Assembly: GCF_000177675.1 (NCBI RefSeq)
Contig: NZ_ADGX01000036.1
Span: forward strand, 1-64,000
Source of the DNA: Parafrankia sp. EUN1f
GTDB lineage: Bacteria; Actinomycetota; Actinomycetes; Frankiales; Frankiaceae
DNA: 64,000 nucleotides
Direction: 5' to 3'
Positions within the stretch are counted from its first letter, which is position 1; every line of letters begins with the position of its first letter. The notes beneath the pieces are model-generated. The model searched no databases, was not told where the DNA came from, and worked only from the letters and a program-made list of their open reading frames with translations. The translations under genes were made by a program, and so were the position numbers. Positions 34,834-48,740 of the stretch are shown in pieces.

Positions 34834-35679
34834 TCAGCTCTTTGGTTTCTTGGCGCCGCCGAAGCCGAGGCGGGCGCTGCGTTCCTTGAACTCCGGGGTG
34901 TTCAGCAGGTTGGTCACCAGCAGGCGGTCGAGGTGGCGCTGGGCGGTGCGGTCGGAGATGTCGGCGTACATGTCGACGGCGAGCTTCGCCACGCCGAGAG
35001 CCTCGGCGGGGATGGTGGTGAGCTCGCGGCAGAACGCGTACACGTCGTCCAGGAACGTCTCCGTCGGGAAGATGTCGTGCACCAGGCCGATCCGCAGCGC
35101 CTGCTCGGCGGTGACCTTGCGGCCGGCCATCGCCATCCACTTTCCCCAGGCGGGGCCGACGATGCGGGTGAGGCGGCTGGTGCCGCCGCTGCCGGCCAGC
35201 ACCCCGATGTGGATCTCCGGCACCGCGAACTCCGCCTGCGGGGTGCAGAACCGGAAGTCGCACGACACCGCCATCTCCACCCCACCACCCAGGCAGATTC
35301 CCTGCGCGGCGATGATGATCGGCTTCTCGATCGCCTCGAACTCGTCGTAGAGCGCGTGGTGGCTGCGGTAGTTGCGCCGGACGTTCCAGCCCGGGTGAAG
35401 GTGCTCCGTCTCCGGGTTTCCCTGCCGGTTGCCGACGGGCTCGGACAGGTCGACGCCGGCGGTGAAGTACCGCCCGACGCCGGTGATGACCAGGCAGCGC
35501 AGGTCGTCCCGGTCGGAGAGCAGATTGGCGGCCTGCCAGAGGGTGCTGGTGACCTGGGCGCTGATGAGGTTGAGCTTCGGGCGGTCGATGGTCACGGTGA
35601 GGATGCCGTCGTGCTCGGTCAGCCGGGCGTGCTGCTCGCCGGCCCCTCCGGCTGGCTGTTGGGCGCTCGTTGCCGTCAT
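34834..35679 (-). CDS. Enoyl-CoA hydratase/isomerase family protein
   Basis: A 281-residue crotonase. The motifs are FTAGVDLSE and GICLGGGVEMAVSCDFRFC for the oxyanion hole and VPEIHIGVLAGSGGTSRL for the catalytic Glu loop, so unlike the copy at 17061 it keeps a Glu in that loop. The start is ATG 35679. It is the last gene of a minus-strand unit with a TetR regulator (54 bases upstream) and an acyl-CoA synthetase. Hydration of an enoyl-CoA or an isomerase reaction is expected. The terminal Lys-rich GGAKKPKS is unusual but harmless. Confidence 0.85.
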   Translation of the reverse strand: MTATSAQQPAGGAGEQHARLTEHDGILTVTIDRPKLNLISAQVTSTLWQAANLLSDRDDLRCLVITGVGRYFTAGVDLSEPVGNRQGNPETEHLHPGWNVRRNYRSHHALYDEFEAIEKPIIIAAQGICLGGGVEMAVSCDFRFCTPQAEFAVPEIHIGVLAGSGGTSRLTRIVGPAWGKWMAMAGRKVTAEQALRIGLVHDIFPTETFLDDVYAFCRELTTIPAEALGVAKLAVDMYADISDRTAQRHLDRLLVTNLLNTPEFKERSARLGFGGAKKPKS

Positions 35680-35733
35680 GAACTCGAGATCCTTCCGTCT
35701 TCTGCTGGGCTCGCGCGGGAGCCGCACCTGTGG

Positions 35734-36366
35734 TCAGCCGGCGGCGGCCGGCGTGACGAACGCGCGGCGGACCATCTCGACGAACTGCTCCTCGGCGATG
35801 CCTGCCGTCCCGTCGGGGCGGGTCGCCTCGGCGTTGCGGTAGGCCCCGACCATCGACGCGAGCAGCCGGGCGAGGCTGTCGGCATCGCCGCCGCAGATCG
35901 TGCCGTCGCGCTGCCCGCGTTGGATCACCTCGGCCTCCAGTCGCATCGCGTCCGTGTACCCGTTGGCGATGTCCTCGCTGAGCTGAGGCGAGACGGCGAG
36001 GCCCGACGAGTACAGCCGGCTCATGAGCCGGCCGAAGTCCGGGTAGGCACGATAGAACATGATCTCGCTGTGGACGAGTCCCACGAGCAGGTCGATGCCC
36101 GCCCCGTCCGCCTCGGCGAAGGAGCGGATCCGCCCCAGCAACGCCCCGCCGCGCCGATCGATGACCGCCCGCAGGAGCTCGTCCTTGTTGGGCAGGTGCA
36201 GGTAGAGCGCTCCGACCGACATCTCGCACCGCTCGGCGACCTGCCGCAGGCTGGTCTCGCGGAAGCCGTGCCGGCCGAACAGCTCCTCTGCGGCGTCGAG
36301 GACCCGCTCACGGACCCGCTCGGCCTGTTCGCGCTGGCGCAGCTCACGCGGGGAGGCGGTCGTCAT
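35734..36366 (-). CDS. TetR-family transcriptional regulator
   Basis: A 210-residue regulator. The HTH domain covers residues 15-60, with RQVAERCEMSVGALYLHLPNKDELLRAV. The C-terminal domain (YPDFGRLMSRLYSSGL and similar) is a ligand-binding helical bundle. Its ATG overlaps the stop of the acyl-CoA synthetase gene (36363-36366), so it is made together with a fatty-acid-activating enzyme and probably senses an acyl-CoA, in the manner of FadR/KstR-like TetR repressors. It probably controls this unit; the operator is not identified. Confidence 0.88.
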   Translation of the reverse strand: MTTASPRELRQREQAERVRERVLDAAEELFGRHGFRETSLRQVAERCEMSVGALYLHLPNKDELLRAVIDRRGGALLGRIRSFAEADGAGIDLLVGLVHSEIMFYRAYPDFGRLMSRLYSSGLAVSPQLSEDIANGYTDAMRLEAEVIQRGQRDGTICGGDADSLARLLASMVGAYRNAEATRPDGTAGIAEEQFVEMVRRAFVTPAAAG

Positions 36367-38156
36367 CGGGCCGCCGCGGTCCCGCTGCCGACGCCCGCGT
36401 CGACGCCGGTGCCGGAGCCGCTCCCCGTCTCGGTGCCGCCGTCGGCGCCGGGTGGGATGTCGAAGCGTTCGCGCAGGTCCTGCTTGAGGACCTTGCCGGT
36501 GGTGTTGCGGGGGAGGCTGCTCACGGTCGTGACATGCGCGGGCACCTTGAAGGCCGCCAGCGATGCGCCCACCCACGCGCGGACGTCGGCCGGGTCGATC
36601 ACGGCGCCGTGGCGGGGAACGATCACGGCCAGCACCTCCTGGCCGAGCTCGCGGTGCGCCACGCCGATCACCGCGGCGTCGGCGACATCGGCGTGTTCGA
36701 GGAGGCGGTTCTCGATCTCGATCGGGTAGATGTTCTCGCCGCCGCGCACGATCATGTCGCGGAGTCGGCTCTCGACCTGGAGCAGACCGCCCTCGAACCG
36801 GCCGTAGTCCCCGGTGGGGTACCAGCCCTGGTCGTCCACCGGGCTGACCGACTCGCCCCAGTAGCCGAGGAAGGTGCTCGGGCAGCGGATCCACAGCTCG
36901 CCGATGCGTCCGTCGGTGATCTCGGCACCGCTCTCGTCCCGGACGACGACTTCGGCGGTCGGCGTGGGTACGCCCGCCGAGGTGGGATGCGCCGCGAGGC
37001 GTGGGCCGCTGATCGCGGTACCCAGGCCGCAGGTCTCGGTCATCCCGTAGCCGTTGGTCAGCGGAGTTCCCGGCATCCGCTGCTCGAGCAGGCGGGGCAG
37101 CTCTGGTGAGATCGTCGCGCCACCGCAGCCGACGCTCCTGATCGTGGCACGGGCCATGCGGTCCAGGTCCGGATGCTCCAGCAGACGCAGGATCTGGGTT
37201 GGCACGCCGCTCCACTGGGTGACGCCATGGCGGGCGGTCAGCTCCAGGTGAACGGCCGGATCCCAGCGGCCGGGCGGGGGAAGCACGAGTGTCATCCCGG
37301 AGCGAGGCGCCACGGCCGTCAGCGGCCCGAGGCCGGAGATGTGGAAGAACGGCCCGGTCAGCACCGACACCGGCGTACCCGCCGGCGGGGGAGCGGCCCC
37401 GGAGACGGCCTCGACCGCGCCGCGCAGCGCCGCGTCCATCGCGAAGTTGACCAGCCCACGGTGGCTGATCAACGCTCCCTTCGGACGGCCGCTGGTACCG
37501 CTGGTGAACAGGATCGCGCAGGCGTCGTCCTCCTCGACGGCGGCCGGCTCGAAGGCCGGCGCCCCGGTCTCCCCGGTCTCGCTGGCCGTCCCCGCCGCGG
37601 CGGGGACGGCCAGGTCGGTGAACGACACCGCGCCGGCGACCGCGTCCGCGACAACCTTGCTGCCCGCGTCGGCGTCGAGCTGGGTGAGGCGGGCGAGCCG
37701 GGGCTCGTCGGCGACCAGCAGCGCCGGTTCGGTCAGCGCCAGACCGGCGGCGAGCTCGGGTCCCGTCCACCAGCCGTTGAGACCGACGACGACGGCGCCG
37801 AGCAGGAGCACGCCCCAGATCGTCAGCGCGTGCTCGGCGCTGTTGGCTCCGGCCAGGGCCACTCGGTCGCCGGCGGCGATCCCGTGACGGCTCCGCAGTG
37901 CCGCGGCGACCGCCCGCGCGGCGTCCGCGGCCTCACGGTAGGTCACCGTCCGCTCCGGCAGTACCAGGTACGGGCGATCGGGGTGCTCCCGGGCGGCCGC
38001 GGCGAGCAGCTCCGGCAGGCTGCGCGGCCGCTGCGCGAAGACCGTCATCTCGACCCCGCGGACGTCCTCGCGCACCAGCTCGAACGGCGCGCCCGGCCCG
38101 GTCAGGACGGGGAGCAGCGACGGCGGGATGCGGGTGAGATCGGGCCAGCCTGCCAT
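36363..38156 (-). CDS. Acyl-CoA synthetase (AMP-binding, FadD-like)
   Basis: ATP-dependent activation of a carboxylic acid to its CoA ester via an acyl-adenylate. The 597-residue protein has the P-loop-like FTSGTSGRPKG near residue 220, YGMTETCG, the hinge GDYGRFEGGLLQVESRLRDM and the catalytic lysine in TGKVLKQDLRE. The start at ATG 38156 follows GGAGG closely. The C-terminal 30 residues (GGTETGSGSGTGVDAG) are a low-complexity tail rarely seen in the family. Coupled to the TetR regulator and followed by an enoyl-CoA hydratase, it probably starts a beta-oxidation branch. Confidence 0.9.
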   Translation of the reverse strand: MAGWPDLTRIPPSLLPVLTGPGAPFELVREDVRGVEMTVFAQRPRSLPELLAAAAREHPDRPYLVLPERTVTYREAADAARAVAAALRSRHGIAAGDRVALAGANSAEHALTIWGVLLLGAVVVGLNGWWTGPELAAGLALTEPALLVADEPRLARLTQLDADAGSKVVADAVAGAVSFTDLAVPAAAGTASETGETGAPAFEPAAVEEDDACAILFTSGTSGRPKGALISHRGLVNFAMDAALRGAVEAVSGAAPPPAGTPVSVLTGPFFHISGLGPLTAVAPRSGMTLVLPPPGRWDPAVHLELTARHGVTQWSGVPTQILRLLEHPDLDRMARATIRSVGCGGATISPELPRLLEQRMPGTPLTNGYGMTETCGLGTAISGPRLAAHPTSAGVPTPTAEVVVRDESGAEITDGRIGELWIRCPSTFLGYWGESVSPVDDQGWYPTGDYGRFEGGLLQVESRLRDMIVRGGENIYPIEIENRLLEHADVADAAVIGVAHRELGQEVLAVIVPRHGAVIDPADVRAWVGASLAAFKVPAHVTTVSSLPRNTTGKVLKQDLRERFDIPPGADGGTETGSGSGTGVDAGVGSGTAAAR

Positions 38157-38208
38157 GGTTTCCTCCAGGCTTCGGTCTTCGGTCTTTCGGGACTGGTCGG
38201 CCGGCCGG

Positions 38209-39708
38209 TCAGACTCCGACGGCGATGACCTTGGTTTCCAGGTACTCCTCGAACCCGGGCACACCCATCTCACGGCCCAGCCCGCTCTGCCGATACCCGC
38301 CGAAGGGCATGTCGGGCGCGTAGTACTGGCCGCCGTTGACGTTGATGGAGCCGGTGCGCACCCGCCGCGCGATGCCCATCGCCCGGTCCAGTGAACCGGA
38401 GCTCACCGACCCGGCCAGCCCGTAGATCGAGTTGTTCGCGATGCGGACGGCGTCGTCGTCGGTGTCGAACGGGATCATCACCGCGACCGGGCCGAAGAAC
38501 TCCTGCTGGGCGATGGCCGAGTCGGGGTCGACGTCGACGAACAGGGTCGGCTCGGTGAAGAAACCGGTCGGCAGGTGCGCGGGCACACCGCCGCCGGCGG
38601 CGACCTTCTGCCCCTCGGCCACCCCGACGGCGATCAGGTCGAGGACCCGCTGCCGCTGCACCGCGCTGATCTGTGGGCCCATCAGCACCGACGGGTCGGT
38701 CGGGTCGCCGTAGGGGAAGTTCGCCAGTGCCTCGCTCATGGCGGCGACGGCGTCGTCGTAGAGCGGGCGGGCCACCAGCAGCCGGGAGTCGATCGCGCAG
38801 CCCTGCCCGGAGTGGAAGCAGGCGACCGTGGCCGCCATCGGGATGACCTTGCCGAGGTCGGCGTCGTCGCACACGATGTGCGCGGACTTGCCGCCCAGCT
38901 CCAGGAACGTCTTCTTGATGGTCGGCGCCGCGGCGGCCATCAGGCGCCGGCCCACCGCCGTCGAACCGGTGAAGCTGATCATGTCGACCCGCGGGTCCTC
39001 CGCGAGGCGCTGCGCGACCTGGTTGTCCGACGTCGTCACGACGTTGAACACCCCGGCCGGGACGTCGGTCTCCTCGGCGACGAGGCGGCCGAGCACGGTG
39101 GCCGTCCAGGGTGAGTCCGGTGCCGGCTTGAGCACCACCGTGTTGCCCGCGGCCAGCGCGGGCACCACCTTCGCCAGGTTGATCTGCATCGGCACGTTCC
39201 ACGGCGTGATCGCCGCGACGACACCGACCGGCTCCCGCGCCACCACCCGGCGGCTGGTGGAGTACGTGACCGGCGAGTCGTACACGCCGTGGTCGGTGTC
39301 CCAGGCGTACTTCTCGGCCAGCTCCACCGTGTAGGAGACGATTCCCAACGCCGCGTCGAGGTGCGGGCCGTGGGTAAGCGATACCGGAGCGCCGATCTCG
39401 GCGACGGTCAGCCCGCGCAGCTCCTCCTTGTGGCGCTCCAGGGCCTCCGACAGCTGGCGCAGGCAGCGCAGCCGCAGCGGCGTGTTCGTCGACCAGTCGG
39501 TGGTGTCGAAGGCGGTTCGGGCGGCGGCGATGGCCGCGTCCATGTCGTCGGAGCCGGCGTCGGCGACCGAGCCGAGGACCTGCTCGGTCGCGGGGTTGAT
39601 GTTGGTGAAGGTGCGGCCGGCCCGCGCCTGTACCAGGGCGCCGCCGATCAGCAGCCGCGGCTCGGAGACCACGGAGTCATCCGCCGGGGCGGCAGAGGTG
39701 TCGGACAT
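38209..39708 (-). CDS. Aldehyde dehydrogenase (NAD-dependent)
   Basis: A 499-residue ALDH with TPWNVP (catalytic Asn), the Glu in LELGGKSAHIV and the nucleophile in HSGQGCAIDSRLL. The C-terminal YYAPDMPFGGYRQSGLGRE is typical of the actinobacterial ALDHs found in terpene and steroid catabolic clusters. It is distinct from the copy at 3034, so the two probably have different substrates. It lies 52 bases upstream of the acyl-CoA synthetase gene on the same strand, suggesting aldehyde to acid to acyl-CoA. The GntR regulator lies upstream. Confidence 0.92.
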   Translation of the reverse strand: MSDTSAAPADDSVVSEPRLLIGGALVQARAGRTFTNINPATEQVLGSVADAGSDDMDAAIAAARTAFDTTDWSTNTPLRLRCLRQLSEALERHKEELRGLTVAEIGAPVSLTHGPHLDAALGIVSYTVELAEKYAWDTDHGVYDSPVTYSTSRRVVAREPVGVVAAITPWNVPMQINLAKVVPALAAGNTVVLKPAPDSPWTATVLGRLVAEETDVPAGVFNVVTTSDNQVAQRLAEDPRVDMISFTGSTAVGRRLMAAAAPTIKKTFLELGGKSAHIVCDDADLGKVIPMAATVACFHSGQGCAIDSRLLVARPLYDDAVAAMSEALANFPYGDPTDPSVLMGPQISAVQRQRVLDLIAVGVAEGQKVAAGGGVPAHLPTGFFTEPTLFVDVDPDSAIAQQEFFGPVAVMIPFDTDDDAVRIANNSIYGLAGSVSSGSLDRAMGIARRVRTGSINVNGGQYYAPDMPFGGYRQSGLGREMGVPGFEEYLETKVIAVGV

Positions 39709-39753
39709 CGAGCTGGCTCCTGTCCCTGTAACGGGTGGTCGTGAGATTGGTCG

Positions 39754-40428
39754 TCAGGCCGCGGGGTGCCAGAGGATGTCGCGTGCGTCCAGCAGCTCCA
39801 CCACATGCCCGCCGTAGCTGCGCAGCAGGCGGATGAACTCCGCCGCGGCGCCGCCGCCGTCGCCGGCCGTCATCGCCCGCATGACGGCGGCCACTCCGCT
39901 CTTCTGCGCCCCGATGGTTCCGGGAACAAGGGCGAAGAAGTTGCCCGGGATGATGCCGGTCATCAGACGGGAGAACGACGACAGCCGGGGCGAGTTCGCC
40001 ATCGCGAAGATCTGGCGGAGGAACTGCTCGTTGGCGCGCAGAAGCTCGTCGGCGTCCTCGGCCTGGCACAGCCGGCGCTCCGCGGCGGCCAGCGCCGCGA
40101 AGCCGGCCGGGTCACCGCGTTCGGTGGCCTGCTCGGCCGCCAGCCCGTAGAGGTGGCCCAGCAGCGCGTAGTAGTCGATGACGGAGTTGCGGTCCAGCCC
40201 GTGGACGAACGCGCCGCGGTGCGGCTCGATCGCGATCCAGCCCTCGCTCTCCAGCGTGATCATCGCCTCGCGCACCGGGATGCGGCTGACGCCCAGCTCC
40301 TCGGCGATCATGTCCTGGCGGACGCGGTCACCCTGGCGCAGCGCACCGCTGAAGATCAGGCCGCGGATGTGGTCCGCGACCTGACGTCCACTGCTGCGAC
40401 GTTCCATGTGCTGCCTGGTCCGGGTCAT
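39754..40428 (-). CDS. GntR-family regulator, FCD (FadR C-terminal-like) type
   Basis: A 224-residue regulator. The N-terminal winged HTH (VADHIRGLIFSGALRQGDRVRQDMIAEELGVSRIPVREA) is a textbook GntR domain, and the rest is an all-helical FCD ligand-binding domain. The ATG at 40428 overlaps the stop of the fused ABC transporter gene by four bases; a second ATG at 40407 is possible. FCD-type GntR proteins sense organic acids or acyl-CoAs. Coupling to the transporter suggests it controls uptake and the downstream aldehyde dehydrogenase/acyl-CoA synthetase genes. Confidence 0.88.
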   Translation of the reverse strand: MTRTRQHMERRSSGRQVADHIRGLIFSGALRQGDRVRQDMIAEELGVSRIPVREAMITLESEGWIAIEPHRGAFVHGLDRNSVIDYYALLGHLYGLAAEQATERGDPAGFAALAAAERRLCQAEDADELLRANEQFLRQIFAMANSPRLSSFSRLMTGIIPGNFFALVPGTIGAQKSGVAAVMRAMTAGDGGGAAAEFIRLLRSYGGHVVELLDARDILWHPAA

Positions 40429-43205
40429 TCAGCCACCCGGACGGCCTTGGTCGCCGCCGTGGCAGGGGCGGCCGGGGTGGCGCCGGCGCCGGCGCCGGCG
40501 GTACCAAGGTAGGCGCGGGCCAGCTGCTCGGTGTCCAGCTCGCTGGTCGGGCCGGCCCAGGTGATGTGGCCGACGGTGAGGAAGGCGGCGTGCCCCGCGA
40601 CGGACAGCGCGTTGCGGGTCTTCTCCTCGGCGATGAGCAGGGCCGTTCCCTGCTGCTGCAGCTGGCCGAGCGCGGCGAAGATCTGCTCGGTGACCAGCGG
40701 TGCCAGGCCGAGCGACGGCTCGTCGGCGATGAGCAGGCGGGGCGGGCGGACGAGCGCCGGGGCGAGGGTGAGCTGCTGCTGCTCACCGCCGGAAAGCGCA
40801 CCCGCGGCCTGCCCGCGCCGGCGGGCCAGCGAGGGGAAGGCCTCGTAGGCACGGTCGCGTTCGTCCCGGTCGCGCAGCCAGATCGTCAGGTTCTCCTCGA
40901 CGGTGAGGTCGGGGAAGATGCCGCGGCCCTCGGGCGCCAGATAGATGCCGTCACGCCGCCGGTGCTGCGCCGGGATCGCGGTGACGTCCTCGCCGGCGAG
41001 CTCGACGGTGCCCGAGGTGGGTGTGACGAGGCCGCCGATCGCCGCGCACAGCGTGGTCTTGCCGGCACCGTTGCTGCCCAGCAGGGCCAACGCCTCGCCG
41101 GGGCCGATCACGAGGTCGACGCCGTGCAGGACCTCGATGTCGTTGTAGCCGGCGTGCAGCCCACGCACCCGCAGGACGGGCTCCACCGCGCCTGCGAGCG
41201 CACCGGCGGCCGTGGGCACATCGCCGCCCACAGGAACAGCGACCGCGGGTGAGGGAGCTGCCGGGGCGGGCGCCGTCGCAGCTGTTGCCGGGCCGGCCTG
41301 GCGGCGGCGACGTTGCTGGGTGGCGCGGCCGATGGCGGCCAGCGCGCCGTCCGGGTCGCGGGCCAGGCCGATGGCGCCGAGCCCGAAGAGGATCTGCATG
41401 AAGTGGGTGGAGTCCGGGATGTTCTCGAACGCCTGCGGGGCGAGCGCGGCGACGAGGCCGGCGAGGACGGCGCCGGCGGGGCGGCGGATGCTGAAGGTGA
41501 TGGTGGTCGCCAGCCAGACCAGCCCGAGGAACGCGTCGTAGTCGGTGTTGGTGACCCGGCCGCGGGTGGTCGCGAGCAGGACGCCGCCGAACCCGGCGAT
41601 GGCCGCGGAGATGACGAAGACCAGCAGCTTCATGCGCCCGACGGCGATGCCGTTGGTCTGCGCGCCGACGTCGCTGGAGCGGACGGCGAGCATCGCCCGG
41701 CCCGTGCTGGAGGTGCGCAGGGCGTGGACGAGCCAGATGGTCAGCCCGAGCAGCACGAGCAGCATCACGACCATCCACCGGGGGTTGGCGGTGTCGACGA
41801 TGCCCAGGTCCGGTGCCGGGATCGCCCAGCCGCCGGAGCCGTTGGAGATGTCGCGGATCTGGAACAGCAGGTTCTGGCCGATGAACGCCAGCGCCAGCGT
41901 GGACAGCGCCAGCGGCAGTCCGCCGAGACGGCGGGTCGGCAGCGCGATGACGGCGCCGGTCAGGGCGGCGACGATCACCCCGGCGAGCAGCGCGGGCAGG
42001 TAGGGGACGTCATGGGAGAGCAGGATGCCGGTGGTGAAGGCACCGGCGAGGACGAAGGCGACCTGCGCGAGGCTGACCATGCCGCCGATGCCGGTGACGA
42101 CCGTGAACGACATCAGCACGATGGCGGTGGCCAGGCCCTCTGCGAGCAGACCGGCCCAGAAGTCGGTGGCGCCCCAGGCGGTGTAGGCGAGCAGGCCGGC
42201 GGTGACCACACCCCACAGCGCGCGCCGGCGCCACGGCGAGACCTCGGTCGGGTCCTCGGCGGGCGGCTTCTCCTCGAGGGTGGTGCCGGCGGAACGGCCG
42301 CGTTCGGCGCCGAAGAAGAACAGCAGCAGGAAGAGAATGATGAACGGGACGGCGGTCGGGAATCCGGTGATGTCGAGGTCGACGTAGCCGTCCACCAGGT
42401 TCTGGGCGACACCGAGCAGCAGACCACCGGCCATCGCGATCGGAATGGAGGCGAAACGCGCCAGCACCACCGCGGGGATCGAGACGAACAGCAGCGTGTT
42501 GTAGGTGAAGTTGGCCAGGCCGAACATCGGGGCCAGCAGGACGCCGACCAGGCCGGCCAGCCCGCAGGAGGTGATCCAGGAGACCGCGGACGCACGGTCC
42601 GGGTCGACGCCGCGCAGGGCGGCGATGGCGGGCCGGCTCACCGAGGCGCGCATCTCCAGGCCGATGCGGGTGCGGCGAACGAGATACCACAGCAGCAGCG
42701 CGGAGAAGATCGCGGCGCCGAGAATGGCCAGCTTGTCGCTGTCCAGGATCAGCCCGTTGCCGAGCTTGTAGATCTCCTTGGGGCTGGGGCCCAGGCCCGG
42801 GAACCGGAAGACGTCCTCGACGGTCGGCAGGTCCAGGCTGGCCTTCTCCCGCAGCATGGCGGAGATCCACAGGCACAGCGCGGGCAGCGCGATGAGCAGG
42901 CCGAGGGTGGCGACCATCCGCGCCGCGATGGACGCGTCGCGCAGCGGGTTGAACAGGATCCGGTGCAGCAGCCAGCCCAGCGCCGGCGCGAACACGCCGA
43001 CACACAGAATCGCGCTCGGCACGACGGGCAGGCCCTGGCCGGTGTTGAGCTGGAAGAACAGGTAGGCCGTCGAGAAGGCGACGCCGCCCTGCCCGAAGTT
43101 GAACACTCCGGAGGTCTGGTAGGTGAGGGTCAGGCCGGACGCGAGGATCGCGTATAACGCGCCGGTGACCAGCCCCGCGACCACCAGGTTGAAGAACTCG
43201 GTCAC
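40425..43205 (-). CDS. Fused branched-chain-type ABC transporter: LivH permease + LivM permease + LivF ATPase
   Basis: A single 926-residue polypeptide carries what is normally three Liv proteins. Residues 1-300 are a LivH-like permease (GALYAILASGLTLTYQTSGVFNFGQGG). Residues 325-625 are a LivM-like permease (GIGGMVSLAQVAFVLAGAFTTGIL, then the EAA-like STGRAMLAVRSSDVGAQTNG). An Ala/Pro linker follows, then residues 690-895 form a LivF-like ATPase with Walker A GSNGAGKTT near 709, the LSGGEQ signature near 803 and Walker B LLIADEP near 824. The frame is intact throughout, so the fusion is not a sequencing join visible from the data. The partner LivG ATPase and binding lipoprotein are encoded upstream. 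It should import a hydrophobic amino acid or a carboxylated catabolite. Confidence 0.92.
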   Translation of the reverse strand: MTEFFNLVVAGLVTGALYAILASGLTLTYQTSGVFNFGQGGVAFSTAYLFFQLNTGQGLPVVPSAILCVGVFAPALGWLLHRILFNPLRDASIAARMVATLGLLIALPALCLWISAMLREKASLDLPTVEDVFRFPGLGPSPKEIYKLGNGLILDSDKLAILGAAIFSALLLWYLVRRTRIGLEMRASVSRPAIAALRGVDPDRASAVSWITSCGLAGLVGVLLAPMFGLANFTYNTLLFVSIPAVVLARFASIPIAMAGGLLLGVAQNLVDGYVDLDITGFPTAVPFIILFLLLFFFGAERGRSAGTTLEEKPPAEDPTEVSPWRRRALWGVVTAGLLAYTAWGATDFWAGLLAEGLATAIVLMSFTVVTGIGGMVSLAQVAFVLAGAFTTGILLSHDVPYLPALLAGVIVAALTGAVIALPTRRLGGLPLALSTLALAFIGQNLLFQIRDISNGSGGWAIPAPDLGIVDTANPRWMVVMLLVLLGLTIWLVHALRTSSTGRAMLAVRSSDVGAQTNGIAVGRMKLLVFVISAAIAGFGGVLLATTRGRVTNTDYDAFLGLVWLATTITFSIRRPAGAVLAGLVAALAPQAFENIPDSTHFMQILFGLGAIGLARDPDGALAAIGRATQQRRRRQAGPATAATAPAPAAPSPAVAVPVGGDVPTAAGALAGAVEPVLRVRGLHAGYNDIEVLHGVDLVIGPGEALALLGSNGAGKTTLCAAIGGLVTPTSGTVELAGEDVTAIPAQHRRRDGIYLAPEGRGIFPDLTVEENLTIWLRDRDERDRAYEAFPSLARRRGQAAGALSGGEQQQLTLAPALVRPPRLLIADEPSLGLAPLVTEQIFAALGQLQQQGTALLIAEEKTRNALSVAGHAAFLTVGHITWAGPTSELDTEQLARAYLGTAGAGAGATPAAPATAATKAVRVAE

Positions 43206-43302
43206 GCGATTCCTCCTTGGTCGCGGCCCGCGCCGCCGCCATTTCTGAGACCACCTGGCCGGGCGCGGAGTTTCCGTTCCGGCCCCGGCCAGGCGGTATT
43301 AC

Positions 43303-43350
<48 letters not shown>

Positions 43351-43360
43351 TGCGGTGGAG

Positions 43361-44698
43361 CTACTTCTTGATCAGGGAACCGCAGGAGAGCTTGCTGGTG
43401 ATGTCGTACTTGTCGCCGTTGAGCTGGACGATCGAGGCGCAGGGGGACGAGATGTTGTGGTTGAGCGGCCACCGCGTCTCGGGCACGGCGCCCTCGACGT
43501 AGTAGGAGTAGTCGGAGTTGAGCACCTTCAGGAGCTTGTCGACGGTGAGGTCACGGCCGGCCTTGGTGGCTGCCTGGACGAACATGTCGGCCGCCCAGTA
43601 CCCGGCCATCGCCGGCAGGCTGATGGCCTGGTCCGGGGCGTACTTGGCGAAGTCCTCGGTGAGCTGCTTGATGGCGGGGACGCTGGTGTCGACCCCGGGC
43701 TGCCACTGCACGATCGTGTAGGACTTCTGCAGGTCCTTGAACCCGGCGAGGCGCGGGTCGTAGCCGACCGGGTTGAGGTTCTTGCCCTCGTACCCGGCAG
43801 CGGTCATCGCGGCGGTCATCTTGATGACCGAGTTGAAGTCCGCGACGTAGAGGACGACGTCCGGCGGGGCGCCGTTGTTCGAGGTCATCAGGGCGTTGAC
43901 GACCGCGGTGGTGTCGGTGATGCCCGCGACGGGGATCGGGTTCTCCTCGTAGACGGTCTTCACCCCGACGGAGCGGATCTGTTCGCCGAGCTGCTTCAGG
44001 CCCGCCCGTGCCGAGTCGTTGTCGACACCGACGAGAGCGGTCGTCTTGCCGGAGGCGTCACCGCCGAACATGGCCTGGATCATCAGGCCGTACGTCGTCG
44101 AGGTGACGTCGCCCTCGGGGAACTGGCATCCGGTGACGCCGAAGCCGATCGAGGTCTCGCAGAAACCGAGGTTGAAGCCCCAGCCGAAGAAGGGAACCGT
44201 CTCGCCGCAGAAGGTGTCGAGATAGTTCGCGCTGCTGGTCATCACCGGGACCGCGGCGAAGATGTTCTTGTCGACCAGTGCCTTGGCCTGGGCGCTGTTG
44301 CGCGCGGGGTCGTTGCCGTCATCGAGGGTGCCCACGTAGTTGATCTTGCGGCCGTTGACGCCGCCCTCGGCGTTCGCCCGGTCGAAACGGGCCTGCGCGC
44401 CGAGCTCGGTGCCGGCCATCGAGCTGCCGCTGGCGCTGGTCAGATAGGCCAGGCCACCGATGGTGATCTCGTTGTCGGTGACGCCGCGGGTGGGGTTGGC
44501 GGCGGTCTGGCCACATTTCAGGCTGGCTGCGTCCACGGTGTAGCCACCGTCGCTCCAGCCCGACGGTGGGCCCGCCTTCACCGTGTCGGCCGCGACCGTC
44601 GGGCCGTCCTGAGGTGTGCCGTCCGACGAGCACCCCACAGCACTCGCGATGACCGCGAGCGCGGTGGCTGCCGCCGCCACTAATCGGATGGGTCGCAT
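43361..44698 (-). CDS. Branched-chain amino acid-type ABC substrate-binding lipoprotein (LivK-like)
   Basis: A 445-residue extracellular solute-binding protein of the periplasmic-binding-protein type 1 fold. The N-terminus MRPIRLVAAAATALAVIAS is a signal peptide ending in a lipobox-like SAVGC, so it is probably a lipoprotein. ITIGGLAYLTSASGSSMAGTE starts the mature receptor domain. Several cysteines (for example in CGQTAA, FCGET, FCETS, TGCQFP) could form disulfides. The start at ATG 44698 has AGGAG upstream. It is followed by the fused permease-permease-ATPase gene. Ligands of such receptors in catabolic clusters include hydrophobic and aromatic acids as well as amino acids. Confidence 0.9.
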   Translation of the reverse strand: MRPIRLVAAAATALAVIASAVGCSSDGTPQDGPTVAADTVKAGPPSGWSDGGYTVDAASLKCGQTAANPTRGVTDNEITIGGLAYLTSASGSSMAGTELGAQARFDRANAEGGVNGRKINYVGTLDDGNDPARNSAQAKALVDKNIFAAVPVMTSSANYLDTFCGETVPFFGWGFNLGFCETSIGFGVTGCQFPEGDVTSTTYGLMIQAMFGGDASGKTTALVGVDNDSARAGLKQLGEQIRSVGVKTVYEENPIPVAGITDTTAVVNALMTSNNGAPPDVVLYVADFNSVIKMTAAMTAAGYEGKNLNPVGYDPRLAGFKDLQKSYTIVQWQPGVDTSVPAIKQLTEDFAKYAPDQAISLPAMAGYWAADMFVQAATKAGRDLTVDKLLKVLNSDYSYYVEGAVPETRWPLNHNISSPCASIVQLNGDKYDITSKLSCGSLIKK

Positions 44699-44748
44699 CG
44701 TTGCACTCCTGGTGATTCTTGAACGAACGAGCGGTGCGGGAGCTGGTG

Positions 44749-45549
44749 TCAGCCGAGGTAGGCGTCGCGGACGGCCTGGTTCGCCTGAATCTCGGCCGGG
44801 GTGCCCTCGGCGAGGACGGAGCCCAGGTCGAGCACGGTGATGCGGTCGCAGGTCCGCATAACGAAGGCGGCGTCGTGCTCGACGAGCACCACCGCGCACC
44901 CCTCGCCCCGCAGGGACAGCACCAGCTCCCCGAAGCGGTCGGACTCGGCGTGAGCCAGCCCGGACGTCGGCTCGTCGAGCAGCAGCAGCCGCGGGCGGTC
45001 GGCGATGGCGCGCGCGAGCTCGAGCAGGCGCTGCTGGCCGAGTGGCAGCGCGCCGGCGGAGACCTTGCGCAGTTCCGTGAGGCCGCACCACTCGAGGACC
45101 TCCGCGGCCCGCTCGCGGCGCTGGCGTTCCAGCGTGCGCCGCGACGGCAGGGAGAGCAGGTCGGCGAGGACACCGCCACCGCCGCCGTGCCACTCGAGCC
45201 CGGCGAGCACGTTGTCCTCCACCGAAAGCCAGCTGAAGACCTGGGCCCGCTGGAACGTGCGGCGCATGCCGAGCCGTGCGCGCCGGGTGGCCGAGACGGC
45301 TGTGACGTCGTCGTCCGCGAAGTGGACGGTTCCCTCGGAGGCGGGGGTGATGCCGGAGATGATGTCGAAAAGCGTGGTCTTGCCTGCGCCGTTCGGCCCG
45401 ATGAGGCCCTGGACGGTTCCGGCGGCGACGGTGAGGTCGACGTCGGTCAGTGCGCGCACCCCGCCGAAGCGCTTGCTGACCGAGGACAGGCGCAACAGTG
45501 GCGCTGCTCCGGTGACGGGCGGCGCCGCGGTGGATGTCGGCGTCGGCAT
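44749..45549 (-). CDS. ABC transporter ATP-binding protein, LivG-like
   Basis: A 266-residue ATPase with Walker A GPNGAGKTT at 51-59, FQRAQVFSWLSVEDNVL typical of the LivG branch, the signature LPLGQQRLLELARAI and Walker B LLLLDEPTSGL. The start at ATG 45549 follows GGAGG; upstream in-frame residues are not conserved in the family. It is the first gene of the transporter unit and the second ATPase beside the one fused to the permeases. This explains why only LivG exists as a free subunit here. The likely transport form is LivG plus the fusion protein, fed by the LivK-like lipoprotein. Confidence 0.9.
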   Translation of the reverse strand: MPTPTSTAAPPVTGAAPLLRLSSVSKRFGGVRALTDVDLTVAAGTVQGLIGPNGAGKTTLFDIISGITPASEGTVHFADDDVTAVSATRRARLGMRRTFQRAQVFSWLSVEDNVLAGLEWHGGGGGVLADLLSLPSRRTLERQRRERAAEVLEWCGLTELRKVSAGALPLGQQRLLELARAIADRPRLLLLDEPTSGLAHAESDRFGELVLSLRGEGCAVVLVEHDAAFVMRTCDRITVLDLGSVLAEGTPAEIQANQAVRDAYLG

Positions 45550-45858
45550 AATGCCTCCAAAACCGCCGTCGGCGGCAACGACTCGGCTGCGATGTCTCAT
45601 CGGAGTTCTGCTGGATCTGTGGAGATGGGCGCGCCACCCCCGGTGCCAGGGGTCCGGGCCCGGTGTGGGAGCGGCACGGGCCCTGGCGGGGCGGGCGGGT
45701 GACCACGCATGACCCGGGACGTGGCGTCACTGCGGTGATCTTTAGATATTGTATAATCAATCACATATGCCGGAATGTGGCAAGGGTTCGTGTACCGGCA
45801 CCACCTTGGTGGTGTTCGTCCCCCCCGCCCGACCCCTGAGTCGGCGCTCGGCCGGCTC
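45550..45858. other. Intergenic region with promoter-like AT patch upstream of the transporter unit
   Basis: No gene in these 309 bases. Near 45741-45770 a striking AT-rich patch contains, on the minus strand, TATACAAT, which could be the -10 box of the transporter operon with a leader of about 190 bases. A similar ATACAAT lies in the promoter region at 48789-48804. The palindrome at 45799-45814 lies near the thiolase end. Confidence 0.45.
45799..45814 (-). terminator. Short hairpin-like palindrome after the thiolase gene
   Basis: CACCACC and GGTGGTG arms around TT, about 45 bases after the thiolase-like stop. The two-base loop makes a real hairpin tight, so it could equally be a protein-binding palindrome. 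Weak terminator call. Confidence 0.35.
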
Positions 45859-47055
45859 TCAGTCGACTCCGAGCAGCACTGTCGAGGCCGAGCTGAACCA
45901 GCCTCCGGTGGCGTTCACACAGGCCACCCGGGCGTCCGGGACCTGCCGGCCGGTGGCCTCCCCGCGCAGCTGGCGGACGGCCTCGACCAGCAGGAAGATC
46001 CCGCGCATGCCGGGATGACAGGCCGACAGCCCGCCGCCGTCGGTGTTGGTGGGCATCGCCCCGCCCACCCGCATCGTGCCGCCCTCCAGGTAGCCGCCGG
46101 CCTCCCCGCGGCCGCAGAACCCCAGCGCCTCGAAGGTCAGCAGCACCGTCGAGGTGAACGAGTCGTAGAACTGGCAGACGTCCACGTCGGCGGGGGTCAG
46201 CCCGGCGCGTGAGAAGGCCAGCCGGCCGGACACCTCGGCGGGTGAGCGGGTGAAGTCCGCCCACTCCGACATCGTCGTCACATTGCTCGCGGTGCCGGTG
46301 CCCAGCACCCGCACCGCCCGGCCCGGCAGGTCGGCCGCGCGCCGGGCGGATGTCAGCACCACCGCGCCGCCACCGTCGCTGCGGATGCAGCAGTGCAGCT
46401 TGGTGAACGGCGTCGCCACCATGGGCGCGGCGAGGACGTCGTCGACCGTCAGCGGCTCCCGGTACATCGCGTCCGGGTTGAGGCCCGCGTTGAAACGGGT
46501 GTCGACGGCGATGTTCGCGAGCTGTTCGATGGTCGTGCCGAACTCGTGCATGTGCCGCCGCGCCGTCATCGCGTACTTGGCGATGAGGGTGTGCCCCCAC
46601 GGCACCTCGAACTGGCTCGGCCCGCGCGACGAAAGCGACAGGTTCGCCGTCCGCAGCCGGTTCTTCAGGTCCGAGCGTGCCGTCGACCCGTAGACGAGCA
46701 GCACGGTGGTCGCGGTTCCGGCCCGGATCGCGTCGGCGGCGTGCTCCAGCATCACCTCCCACGCGCTGCCGCCCACGCTGGTGGAGTCGGTCCAGGTCGG
46801 CCGCAGCCCCAGGTACTCGGCCAGCTCGACCGGCGCGAGGACGCCGAGGCCGGTCGAGGCCACACCGTCGACGTCGGTGTGGCTCAGCCCCGCGTCGGCG
46901 AGTGCCCGGGCCGCGGCCTGCTGGTGCAGCGCGAAGGGCGTCGTCGAGTCCACCCGCCCACAGTCGGACAGCGCCGCCCCGACGATGACAACCTGCTCGA
47001 TCATCCGATTCTGCCCCATCACCCGGTCCTGCCCCATCACCCGGTCCTGCCCCAT
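45859..47055 (-). CDS. Thiolase-superfamily protein (SCP-x/Ltp2-like, nucleophile Cys absent)
   Basis: A 398-residue thiolase-fold protein. C-terminal motifs QFYDSFTSTVLLTFEALGFC, NTDGGGLSACHPG and VNATGGWFSSAS identify the sterol-carrier/lipid-transfer thiolase branch. Where ordinary thiolases have the nucleophilic Cys after the first sub-domain, this chain reads TSVGGSAWEVM at 92-102, without a cysteine. That fits members such as Ltp2 that act as aldolases in steroid side-chain cleavage, usually with a DUF35 partner, which I do not see nearby. ATG 47055 overlaps the synthetase stop (TGATG). The first 18 residues are a tandem repeat (MGQDRV), so the mature start could be the Met of MIEQVV. 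Confidence 0.82.
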   Translation of the reverse strand: MGQDRVMGQDRVMGQNRMIEQVVIVGAALSDCGRVDSTTPFALHQQAAARALADAGLSHTDVDGVASTGLGVLAPVELAEYLGLRPTWTDSTSVGGSAWEVMLEHAADAIRAGTATTVLLVYGSTARSDLKNRLRTANLSLSSRGPSQFEVPWGHTLIAKYAMTARRHMHEFGTTIEQLANIAVDTRFNAGLNPDAMYREPLTVDDVLAAPMVATPFTKLHCCIRSDGGGAVVLTSARRAADLPGRAVRVLGTGTASNVTTMSEWADFTRSPAEVSGRLAFSRAGLTPADVDVCQFYDSFTSTVLLTFEALGFCGRGEAGGYLEGGTMRVGGAMPTNTDGGGLSACHPGMRGIFLLVEAVRQLRGEATGRQVPDARVACVNATGGWFSSASTVLLGVD

Positions 47056-47057
47056 CA
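47014..47057. repeat. 18-nt tandem repeat at the start of the thiolase-like gene
   Basis: About 2.4 copies of an 18-nt unit (CCCCATCACCCGGTCCTG on the plus strand), with a diverged extra copy to the left. On the coding strand each copy supplies an ATG and reads MGQDRV, giving three alternative in-frame starts. Confidence 0.85.
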
Positions 47058-48740
47058 GCGCTTGTCGTAGGTGATGCCGGCGGCCTCGGCGTCCCAGGTG
47101 CCGGCGGTGACGCCCTCGGCGCGCAGCTCACGCTTGAGCACCCGGCCGACGGGGCTGCGCGGCAGCTCGGCGCGGAACTCGATGTAGCGCGGCAGCGCGA
47201 AGTACGGCAGCGCGTCCACACACCAGCGGAACAGCTCCTCCTCGGTGAGCGTCGCGTCCGGTGCGAGGATGGCCGTGACCTTGACGTCGTCCTCGGTCAG
47301 CCTGCTCGGCACCGCGTGCACGGCGACGTCCGCGAGCTGGCCGTGGCCCATCAGGATGCGCTCGACCTCGAAGCTGGCGATGTTCTCACCGCGGCGGCGC
47401 AGGTAGTCGGCCTTGCGGTCGACGAAGTAGAGGAAGCCGTCCTCGTCGATCTTCCCGATGTCGCCGGTGTGGTACCACCAGTTGCGGCTGGCCTCGACCG
47501 TGGCCTCGGGGCGGCCCCAGTAGCCCTCGAACATGACGTGCGGGAGCTTCGGCCGGATGACGATCTCGCCGTCGGTGCCGCGCGGCTGCTCGACGTCGGA
47601 GTCGTCGAAGATGCGGACGTCGAAGTAGCGGGTGTTGATGACCCCGGCGGCCCGCGGCTTGTTGCGCACACCGGGTGGCTGCCAGGAGATCAGACTGGCC
47701 TCGGTGACGCCGTAGGCGCCGGAGAACGTCTCGATGCCGAACCGTTCGCGGATGACGTCGTCGACCTCGGGAGGCAGCGGGGCCGCACCCATCAGCCGCA
47801 GCGAGCTGTTGGCCTGCGCCGCGCCGGAACGCGGCATCTCCGGCCGGTCGACGTCATGGGCGAGCAGGTAGGCCATGGTGCCGAGGGTCGAGGTGATCGT
47901 GGCCCCGGTGCGGTTCATCTCGGGCCAGAAGTTCGACACCGAGAACTTCCGGTAGATCGCCGAGCGGCCACCGAAGACCAGGGCACCGACCACCGCGGTG
48001 ACCAGCGCGTTGTAGTGGAACATCGGCAGCGGCGTCCACAGCACGTCGGACGCCGTGCGCCCCCAGCTGTAGCCGATCTGCTGGGCGAGCGCCTCGTGGT
48101 AGTTGTGGCTGAGCATGCAGCCCTTGGACAGCCCGGTGGTCCCACCCGTGTAGATGAAGGTGGCCAGATCGGACGGGTCGCGCTCCACCGGCGCGGTCAG
48201 CGGGGTGGCGGCGAGCAGGTCGTCGAGGCGGTGCGCGGTGGCGCCGGGGAACTCCAGCGCGTCGGGCCCGGTCACGACGACATGGCGCAGACCGTCGAGG
48301 TCGGCGCTGACCGCCTGCGCCCGGTCGGCCAGGTCCGCTCCCACGACAAGCACCGTCGAGCCGGAGTCACGCAACTGGTGGCGCAGGTACTCGCCCTTGT
48401 AGGCGGTGTTCACCGGTACCGCCACCGCACCCACCCACTGGGTCGCCCACCAGACCAGCAGGGCCTCCGGGGAGTTCTCCAGCAGCGTGGCGACCCGGTC
48501 GCCGGGCGCGACGCCCAGCTCGCGCAGCGCCCCGCCGAGGGCCGCGGCGGCCGTGACGACCTCGCCCGCGGTCAGCTTGGTGCCGCAGACGTCCAGGTAC
48601 TCCGAGTCGGGCTCCTTCTCGGCCCGCCGCAGCAGTAACTCGGTCGTGGTGTGCCGGGGCGCGCTGCCCCAGACGCCGTCGGTCACGTGGCGCTCCTCGG
48701 AAGTCGAGCCGTTTGGGCTTGTGAACTCGGTGAGGCTCAT
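47055..48740 (-). CDS. Acyl-CoA synthetase (AMP-binding, CaiC/FadD17-like)
   Basis: A 561-residue adenylate-forming ligase. YTGGTTGLSKGCMLSHN near residue 200 is the ATP-binding loop, GAYGVTEAS the adenine motif, YHTGDIGKIDEDGFLYFVDRKADYLRRRGENI the hinge, and the catalytic lysine lies in GRVLKREL. Most similar in style to the CaiC/FadD17 group that activates carnitine-like or steroid-derived acids; this is a by-eye judgement. Its stop forms TGATG with the thiolase-like start, so activation and C-C cleavage enzymes are translated together. It is divergent from the Rieske oxygenase gene. Confidence 0.9.
   Translation of the reverse strand: MSLTEFTSPNGSTSEERHVTDGVWGSAPRHTTTELLLRRAEKEPDSEYLDVCGTKLTAGEVVTAAAALGGALRELGVAPGDRVATLLENSPEALLVWWATQWVGAVAVPVNTAYKGEYLRHQLRDSGSTVLVVGADLADRAQAVSADLDGLRHVVVTGPDALEFPGATAHRLDDLLAATPLTAPVERDPSDLATFIYTGGTTGLSKGCMLSHNYHEALAQQIGYSWGRTASDVLWTPLPMFHYNALVTAVVGALVFGGRSAIYRKFSVSNFWPEMNRTGATITSTLGTMAYLLAHDVDRPEMPRSGAAQANSSLRLMGAAPLPPEVDDVIRERFGIETFSGAYGVTEASLISWQPPGVRNKPRAAGVINTRYFDVRIFDDSDVEQPRGTDGEIVIRPKLPHVMFEGYWGRPEATVEASRNWWYHTGDIGKIDEDGFLYFVDRKADYLRRRGENIASFEVERILMGHGQLADVAVHAVPSRLTEDDVKVTAILAPDATLTEEELFRWCVDALPYFALPRYIEFRAELPRSPVGRVLKRELRAEGVTAGTWDAEAAGITYDKR

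Follow-up and report, generated by a model that had tools for sequence, protein, structure and literature searches.

A LivH-LivM-LivF fusion protein in a Liv-type ABC importer of Parafrankia sp. EUN1f

We describe a single protein of Parafrankia sp. EUN1f in which two permeases and one ATPase of a Liv/HAAT-type ABC importer are joined, while the second ATPase and the substrate-binding lipoprotein are encoded separately. Its gene, here called livHMF, lies in a stretch of 64,000 nucleotides from contig NZ_ADGX01000036.1, analysed as a whole (the window). Taken together, the best explanation is one that we hold likely: livHMF encodes the core subunit of the importer, with LivHM as its channel, LivF tethered and LivG free; ATP would be hydrolysed at the LivG site, LivF would have been added once in evolution, and the substrate would be an organic acid.

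The architecture, typing, conservation, phylogeny, motif pattern and gene neighbourhood behind this explanation are direct observations. The locus is organised as follows:

36363..38273, minus strand: acyl-CoA ligase by profile match; the best NCBIfam match, steroid-24-oyl-CoA synthetase, is below cut-off
38209..39708, minus strand: aldehyde dehydrogenase, Rv0768-like by profile match (TIGR04284, below cut-off)
39754..40428, minus strand: GntR/FCD regulator (Pfam), adjoining livHMF in relatives too
40425..43205, minus strand: livHMF, fused LivH-LivM-LivF protein of 926 residues (frame, Pfam, E. coli typing, orthologues)
43361..44698, minus strand: substrate-binding lipoprotein (Peripla_BP_6 by Pfam), with a lipobox-like VIASAVGC read from the sequence
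44749..45600, minus strand: livG, free partner ATPase (Pfam, E. coli typing, motifs)
45859..47055, minus strand: thiolase-like protein, a conserved neighbour (profile match, neighbourhood comparison)
47055..48740, minus strand: acyl-CoA ligase, a conserved neighbour (profile match, neighbourhood comparison)

The livHMF frame opens with GTG behind an AAGGAGG ribosome-binding site, read directly from the sequence, and has no internal stop; the start of the GntR/FCD gene overlaps its stop by 4 nt (ATGA). Between the stop of the binding-protein gene and livHMF, the intergenic stretch is taken up by a CAG-type trinucleotide run of about ten units, not all of them perfect (43296-43345, minus strand). 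Pfam places two BPD_transp_2 domains and one ABC_tran (residues 693-831) on the protein. Typing against the liv operon proteins of E. coli K-12 MG1655, together with an AlphaFold2 model, divides it into five parts:

42306..43205, minus strand: LivH permease domain, residues 1-300, helical in the model; residues 1-310 match E. coli LivH (26%)
42231..42305, minus strand: LivH-LivM linker, residues 301-325, with a conserved AGTTxEEKPPAD; pLDDT <50 at 300-321
41295..42230, minus strand: LivM permease domain, residues 326-637, helical in the model; residues 311-670 match E. coli LivM (27.5%)
41187..41294, minus strand: LivM-LivF linker, residues 638-673, Ala/Pro-rich and variable in length and sequence; pLDDT <50 at 638-673
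40500..41186, minus strand: LivF-type ATPase domain, residues 674-902, typed also by its motifs; residues 671-926 match E. coli LivF (41%) better than LivG (27%)

In the model (mean pLDDT 74, pTM 0.67) both linkers are disordered, at 300-321 and 638-673, and the ATPase is well folded. The best solved match of the ATPase domain in a fold search is 1ji0, at 42% identity; for the whole protein the search returned NBD-level or meaningless full-length matches only (TMq ~0.23), and phmmer found no solved homologue of the permease part. The ATPase carries Walker A GSNGAGKTT, signature LSGGEQ and Walker B IADEP, with Glu at the H-loop position (AEEK). The free ATPase resembles E. coli LivG (38%, 171 bits) more than LivF (35%, 123 bits), and its motifs are Walker A GPNGAGKTT, a degenerate signature LPLGQ and H-loop VEHD. 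A preliminary description of this DNA had proposed both the unbroken LivH-LivM-LivF frame and the separate LivG and lipoprotein genes; the open frame, Pfam and E. coli typing bear it out on these points.

The system contains what defines a HAAT (Liv-type) importer: its two BPD_transp_2 permease domains are one of LivH and one of LivM type; its two ATPases differ, one being LivF-type and the other LivG-type, each with intact Walker A and B motifs; and the operon also encodes an extracytoplasmic binding protein of Peripla_BP_6 type. E. coli LivKHMGF has the same five functional parts and the same asymmetric ATPase motifs, but on five separate polypeptides; here LivH, LivM and LivF are joined and the polypeptides number three, so this is not a classical Liv system with every part on its own chain. 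Closer in layout are the actinobacterial LivHMG proteins, such as those of Rhodococcus jostii RHA1 (WP_011600149.1) and Streptomyces (WP_332880747.1), which are likewise permease-permease-ATPase chains with the second ATPase and the binding protein adjoining. They are nevertheless the mirror image of the window system, with LivG fused and LivF free where ours has LivF fused and LivG free, and their ATPase fusion is of separate origin in the permease tree. Rhodococcus erythropolis R138 has a LivH-LivM fusion (WP_030003114.1) of the same permease clade but without a fused ATPase, LivG and LivF being separate genes. Proteobacterial LivM-LivG proteins, e.g. WP_080623005.1 of Paracoccus yeei, also tether a Liv permease to an ATPase; only LivM and LivG are joined there, LivH is separate, and the protein falls outside the fused-permease clade.

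How common is such a protein? The same genome holds 55 BPD_transp_2 matches, and 20 more of its Liv loci were typed by domain. Nine of them encode a complete LivH-LivM-ATPase protein, in each case with LivG as the fused ATPase and LivF on its own; a tenth has a LivM-LivG piece lying at the edge of a contig; in seven only LivH and LivM are fused, and three are operons with all parts separate. Judged from these loci, Liv-type importers of many architectures have expanded in this genome. The departure from a norm of five polypeptides, on which the preliminary description had dwelt, is thus not exceptional here, given the nine LivH-LivM-ATPase and seven LivH-LivM proteins; NCBI, moreover, already uses the product name 'branched-chain amino acid ABC transporter permease/ATP-binding protein', although the example bearing it, Streptomyces WP_332880747.1, is a LivHMG. 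We found no paper on a LivH-LivM-LivF fusion in the open library searched, where absence is weak evidence.

The suggested search for single-protein homologues in permease-permease-ATPase order was productive: livHMF has single-frame orthologues (E <= 1e-100) in 16 of 35 family genomes, with identities of 98, 84, 78, 77, 75% and lower, and others in Nonomuraea (47%) and Embleya (45%); Frankia AgB1.9 and Pseudofrankia stand at 72-75%, and the overall range is 38-98%. Across the phylum, a survey limited to three scored candidates in each genome (E <= 1e-100) found a livHMF match in at least 3 of 246 genomes, a lower bound. By these comparisons LivHMF is a conserved variation on the architecture of a known importer family, and its uncommon trait is limited to LivF being the joined ATPase. 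Where the flank suffices, in the same genome and in loci across the order, the partners are complementary: LivHMF lies beside a free LivG, LivHMG beside a free LivF. The one clear exception is the LivHMF gene of locus L119 (G004:C111, 5992-8892), where no LivG was found in the ~6 kb flanking it to each side.

In a tree of joined LivH and LivM sequences, all fused permeases form one strongly supported clade, apart from the separate-gene systems. All LivHMF proteins occupy a single branch of it, with the unfused LivHM and LivF of locus L122 nested inside; LivHMG proteins are scattered over several branches, and LivH-LivM proteins without an ATPase are interspersed with ATPase-bearing forms. Strict monophyly of LivHMF is rejected (p 0.003) because L122 nests within the set. 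The simplest reading would be an ancestral actinobacterial LivH-LivM fusion that LivG joined several times and LivF essentially once, the latter followed by one or more splits or else accompanied by a second fusion; sampling was centred on one family, which makes these counts of events provisional. The LivGs that accompany LivHMF group in a clade of their own, consistent with co-evolution of the two proteins. At L122 (G019:C8, 4651-8915) LivF sits on a separate frame behind LivHM, and at L072 (G030:C1:3921188), also of the LivHMF branch, it perhaps does so as well; both could result from a split after the fusion or from a second fusion in other members, and L072 also from a frameshift.

The two ATPases differ in a regular manner. 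Every LivF examined, fused or free, lacks the H-loop histidine, having Gln in nearly all cases and Glu throughout the LivHMF clade; it mostly has Glu at the position of the LivG Q-loop Gln, and its signature is a canonical SGGE/Q. Every LivG examined has intact Q- and H-loops and a degenerate signature (LPLGQ in the window, LAYGD in E. coli). In a composite ATP site, one subunit contributes the Walker, Q and H motifs and the other the signature (PMC7756269); the odd motifs thus gather in the LivF site, leaving a canonical LivG site. By this clustering of motifs, the system belongs with heterodimeric ABC transporters having one degenerate ATP site. The asymmetry is family-wide, E. coli included, and the fusion is not its cause, since unfused systems have it too; the earlier suggestion that the fusion forces asymmetric pairing of the ATPases fails on this point. 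Its companion, that the fusion fixes a 1:1:1 ratio, stands in so far as one chain does fix the ratio in translation, but a 1:1:1:1 complex is already the expected state of an unfused Liv-type ABC importer.

Assembly of the complex, the hydrolysing site, the role of the tether and the substrate are what we infer from these observations. One chain would supply the entire membrane channel, LivH and LivM, with LivF tethered to it by a floppy linker; free LivG would complete the ATPase pair, and the lipoprotein would hand the substrate to the channel. ATP hydrolysis most likely takes place at the LivG site, formed by the Walker, Q and H motifs of LivG against LSGGE of LivF, whereas the LivF site, with Glu where the H-loop His would stand and facing LPLGQ of LivG, most likely binds ATP and hydrolyses little. 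The tether may serve mainly to ensure that LivF is made together with the channel and stays locally concentrated; what the fusion changes is plausibly co-translation, ratio control and that local concentration. Such a tether does not seem essential in every lineage, as L119 has no LivG within ~6 kb and L122, perhaps also L072, has a separate LivF.

Two alternatives concern the protein itself. The frame could be an assembly or sequencing artefact, or an internal start could also yield free LivF, so that the working transporter has separate subunits. The assembly is indeed split over 396 contigs, and a candidate internal GTG at residue 680 has GGAG upstream, a weak ribosome-binding site. That site is missing from the relative with 98% identity, and no internal start with a ribosome-binding site occupies a common position among 21 orthologues; a separate LivF made in this way is not conserved. 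The same single frame recurs in independent genomes, and dN/dS is clearly below 1 in the LivH, LivM and LivF domains alike (five pairwise orthologue comparisons). These results exclude both chance and misassembly as its origin, and the frameshift or misassembly named beforehand as a refutation did not materialise. The linkers diverge and vary in length among orthologues, yet their indels keep the frame, with selection extending across the linker. We consider an artefact or a free LivF very unlikely; comparison with relatives confirms the 926-residue frame as genuine. Even less probable, in our estimation, is that LivHMF pairs with a second LivHMF through LivF-LivF contacts, LivG serving another transporter. 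The L119 gene without a LivG nearby would suit such pairing, but LivG adjoins livHMF in nearly all loci with sufficient flank, the partner LivGs form their own clade as expected of co-evolving partners, each complex would have to contain two channels, and LivF alone would be left without a histidine H-loop.

Two other alternatives bear on the origin and the use of the importer. All permease-permease-ATPase Liv proteins might descend from one fusion with a later exchange of ATPase type, as the single clade of fused LivH-LivM permeases could suggest. Constraining the LivHMG permeases to one clade is rejected, however (AU p 1e-6), and the interspersed ATPase-less LivH-LivM proteins speak against it too; we regard a single origin as improbable. 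As to use, acyl-CoA ligases, a thiolase-like protein, an enoyl-CoA hydratase, an aldehyde dehydrogenase and two regulators (GntR, TetR) surround the importer at 34834-48740, and the cluster looks like an acid catabolism island. We propose import of an organic acid because acyl-CoA ligases, thiolase, dehydrogenase and the GntR regulator adjoin the importer: judging by these neighbours, the compound taken up is probably converted to its CoA thioester, and it need not be a branched-chain amino acid. Should the system instead be an ordinary branched-chain amino acid importer, its neighbours would serve to degrade branched-chain amino acids or fatty acids. The HAAT-family sequence agrees with that, as does the best match of the binding protein among solved structures, a probable Leu/Ile/Val-binding protein. 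That match is weak (E 1.6e-6), though; a single substrate class does not account for the roughly twenty or more Liv-type systems of the genome; and the ligase and thiolase-like genes, with the GntR gene, are kept beside livHMF in relatives of several genera. An ordinary amino acid importer is somewhat unlikely, but less so than the other alternatives.

The system offers biochemists a simplified Liv importer of three polypeptides, and LivHMF with LivG is a convenient structure target, its permease part having no solved homologue by phmmer. For annotation, actinomycete 'permease/ATP-binding' proteins comprise two distinct architectures. The remaining interest lies in the mirror-image choice of tethered ATPase and in the Gln-to-Glu swap of the H-loop in the LivHMF clade; set side by side, LivHMF with LivG and LivHMG with LivF provide a natural contrast for asking which member of an asymmetric ATPase pair may be tethered. 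More tentatively, actinobacterial LivH-LivM may have been extended independently with a catalytic-looking LivG, several times, or a degenerate-looking LivF, essentially once, the H-loop Gln changing to Glu in the LivF-tethered lineage as the tethered ATPase became a specialised, largely structural or regulatory partner. If true, evolution would here have run an experiment of its own on which of the two unequal halves of an ABC motor can be linked permanently to the channel. Finally, the free LivF partners of LivHMG (L084-L086, L083, L088-L091) often have DELS after Walker B, against the usual DEPS.
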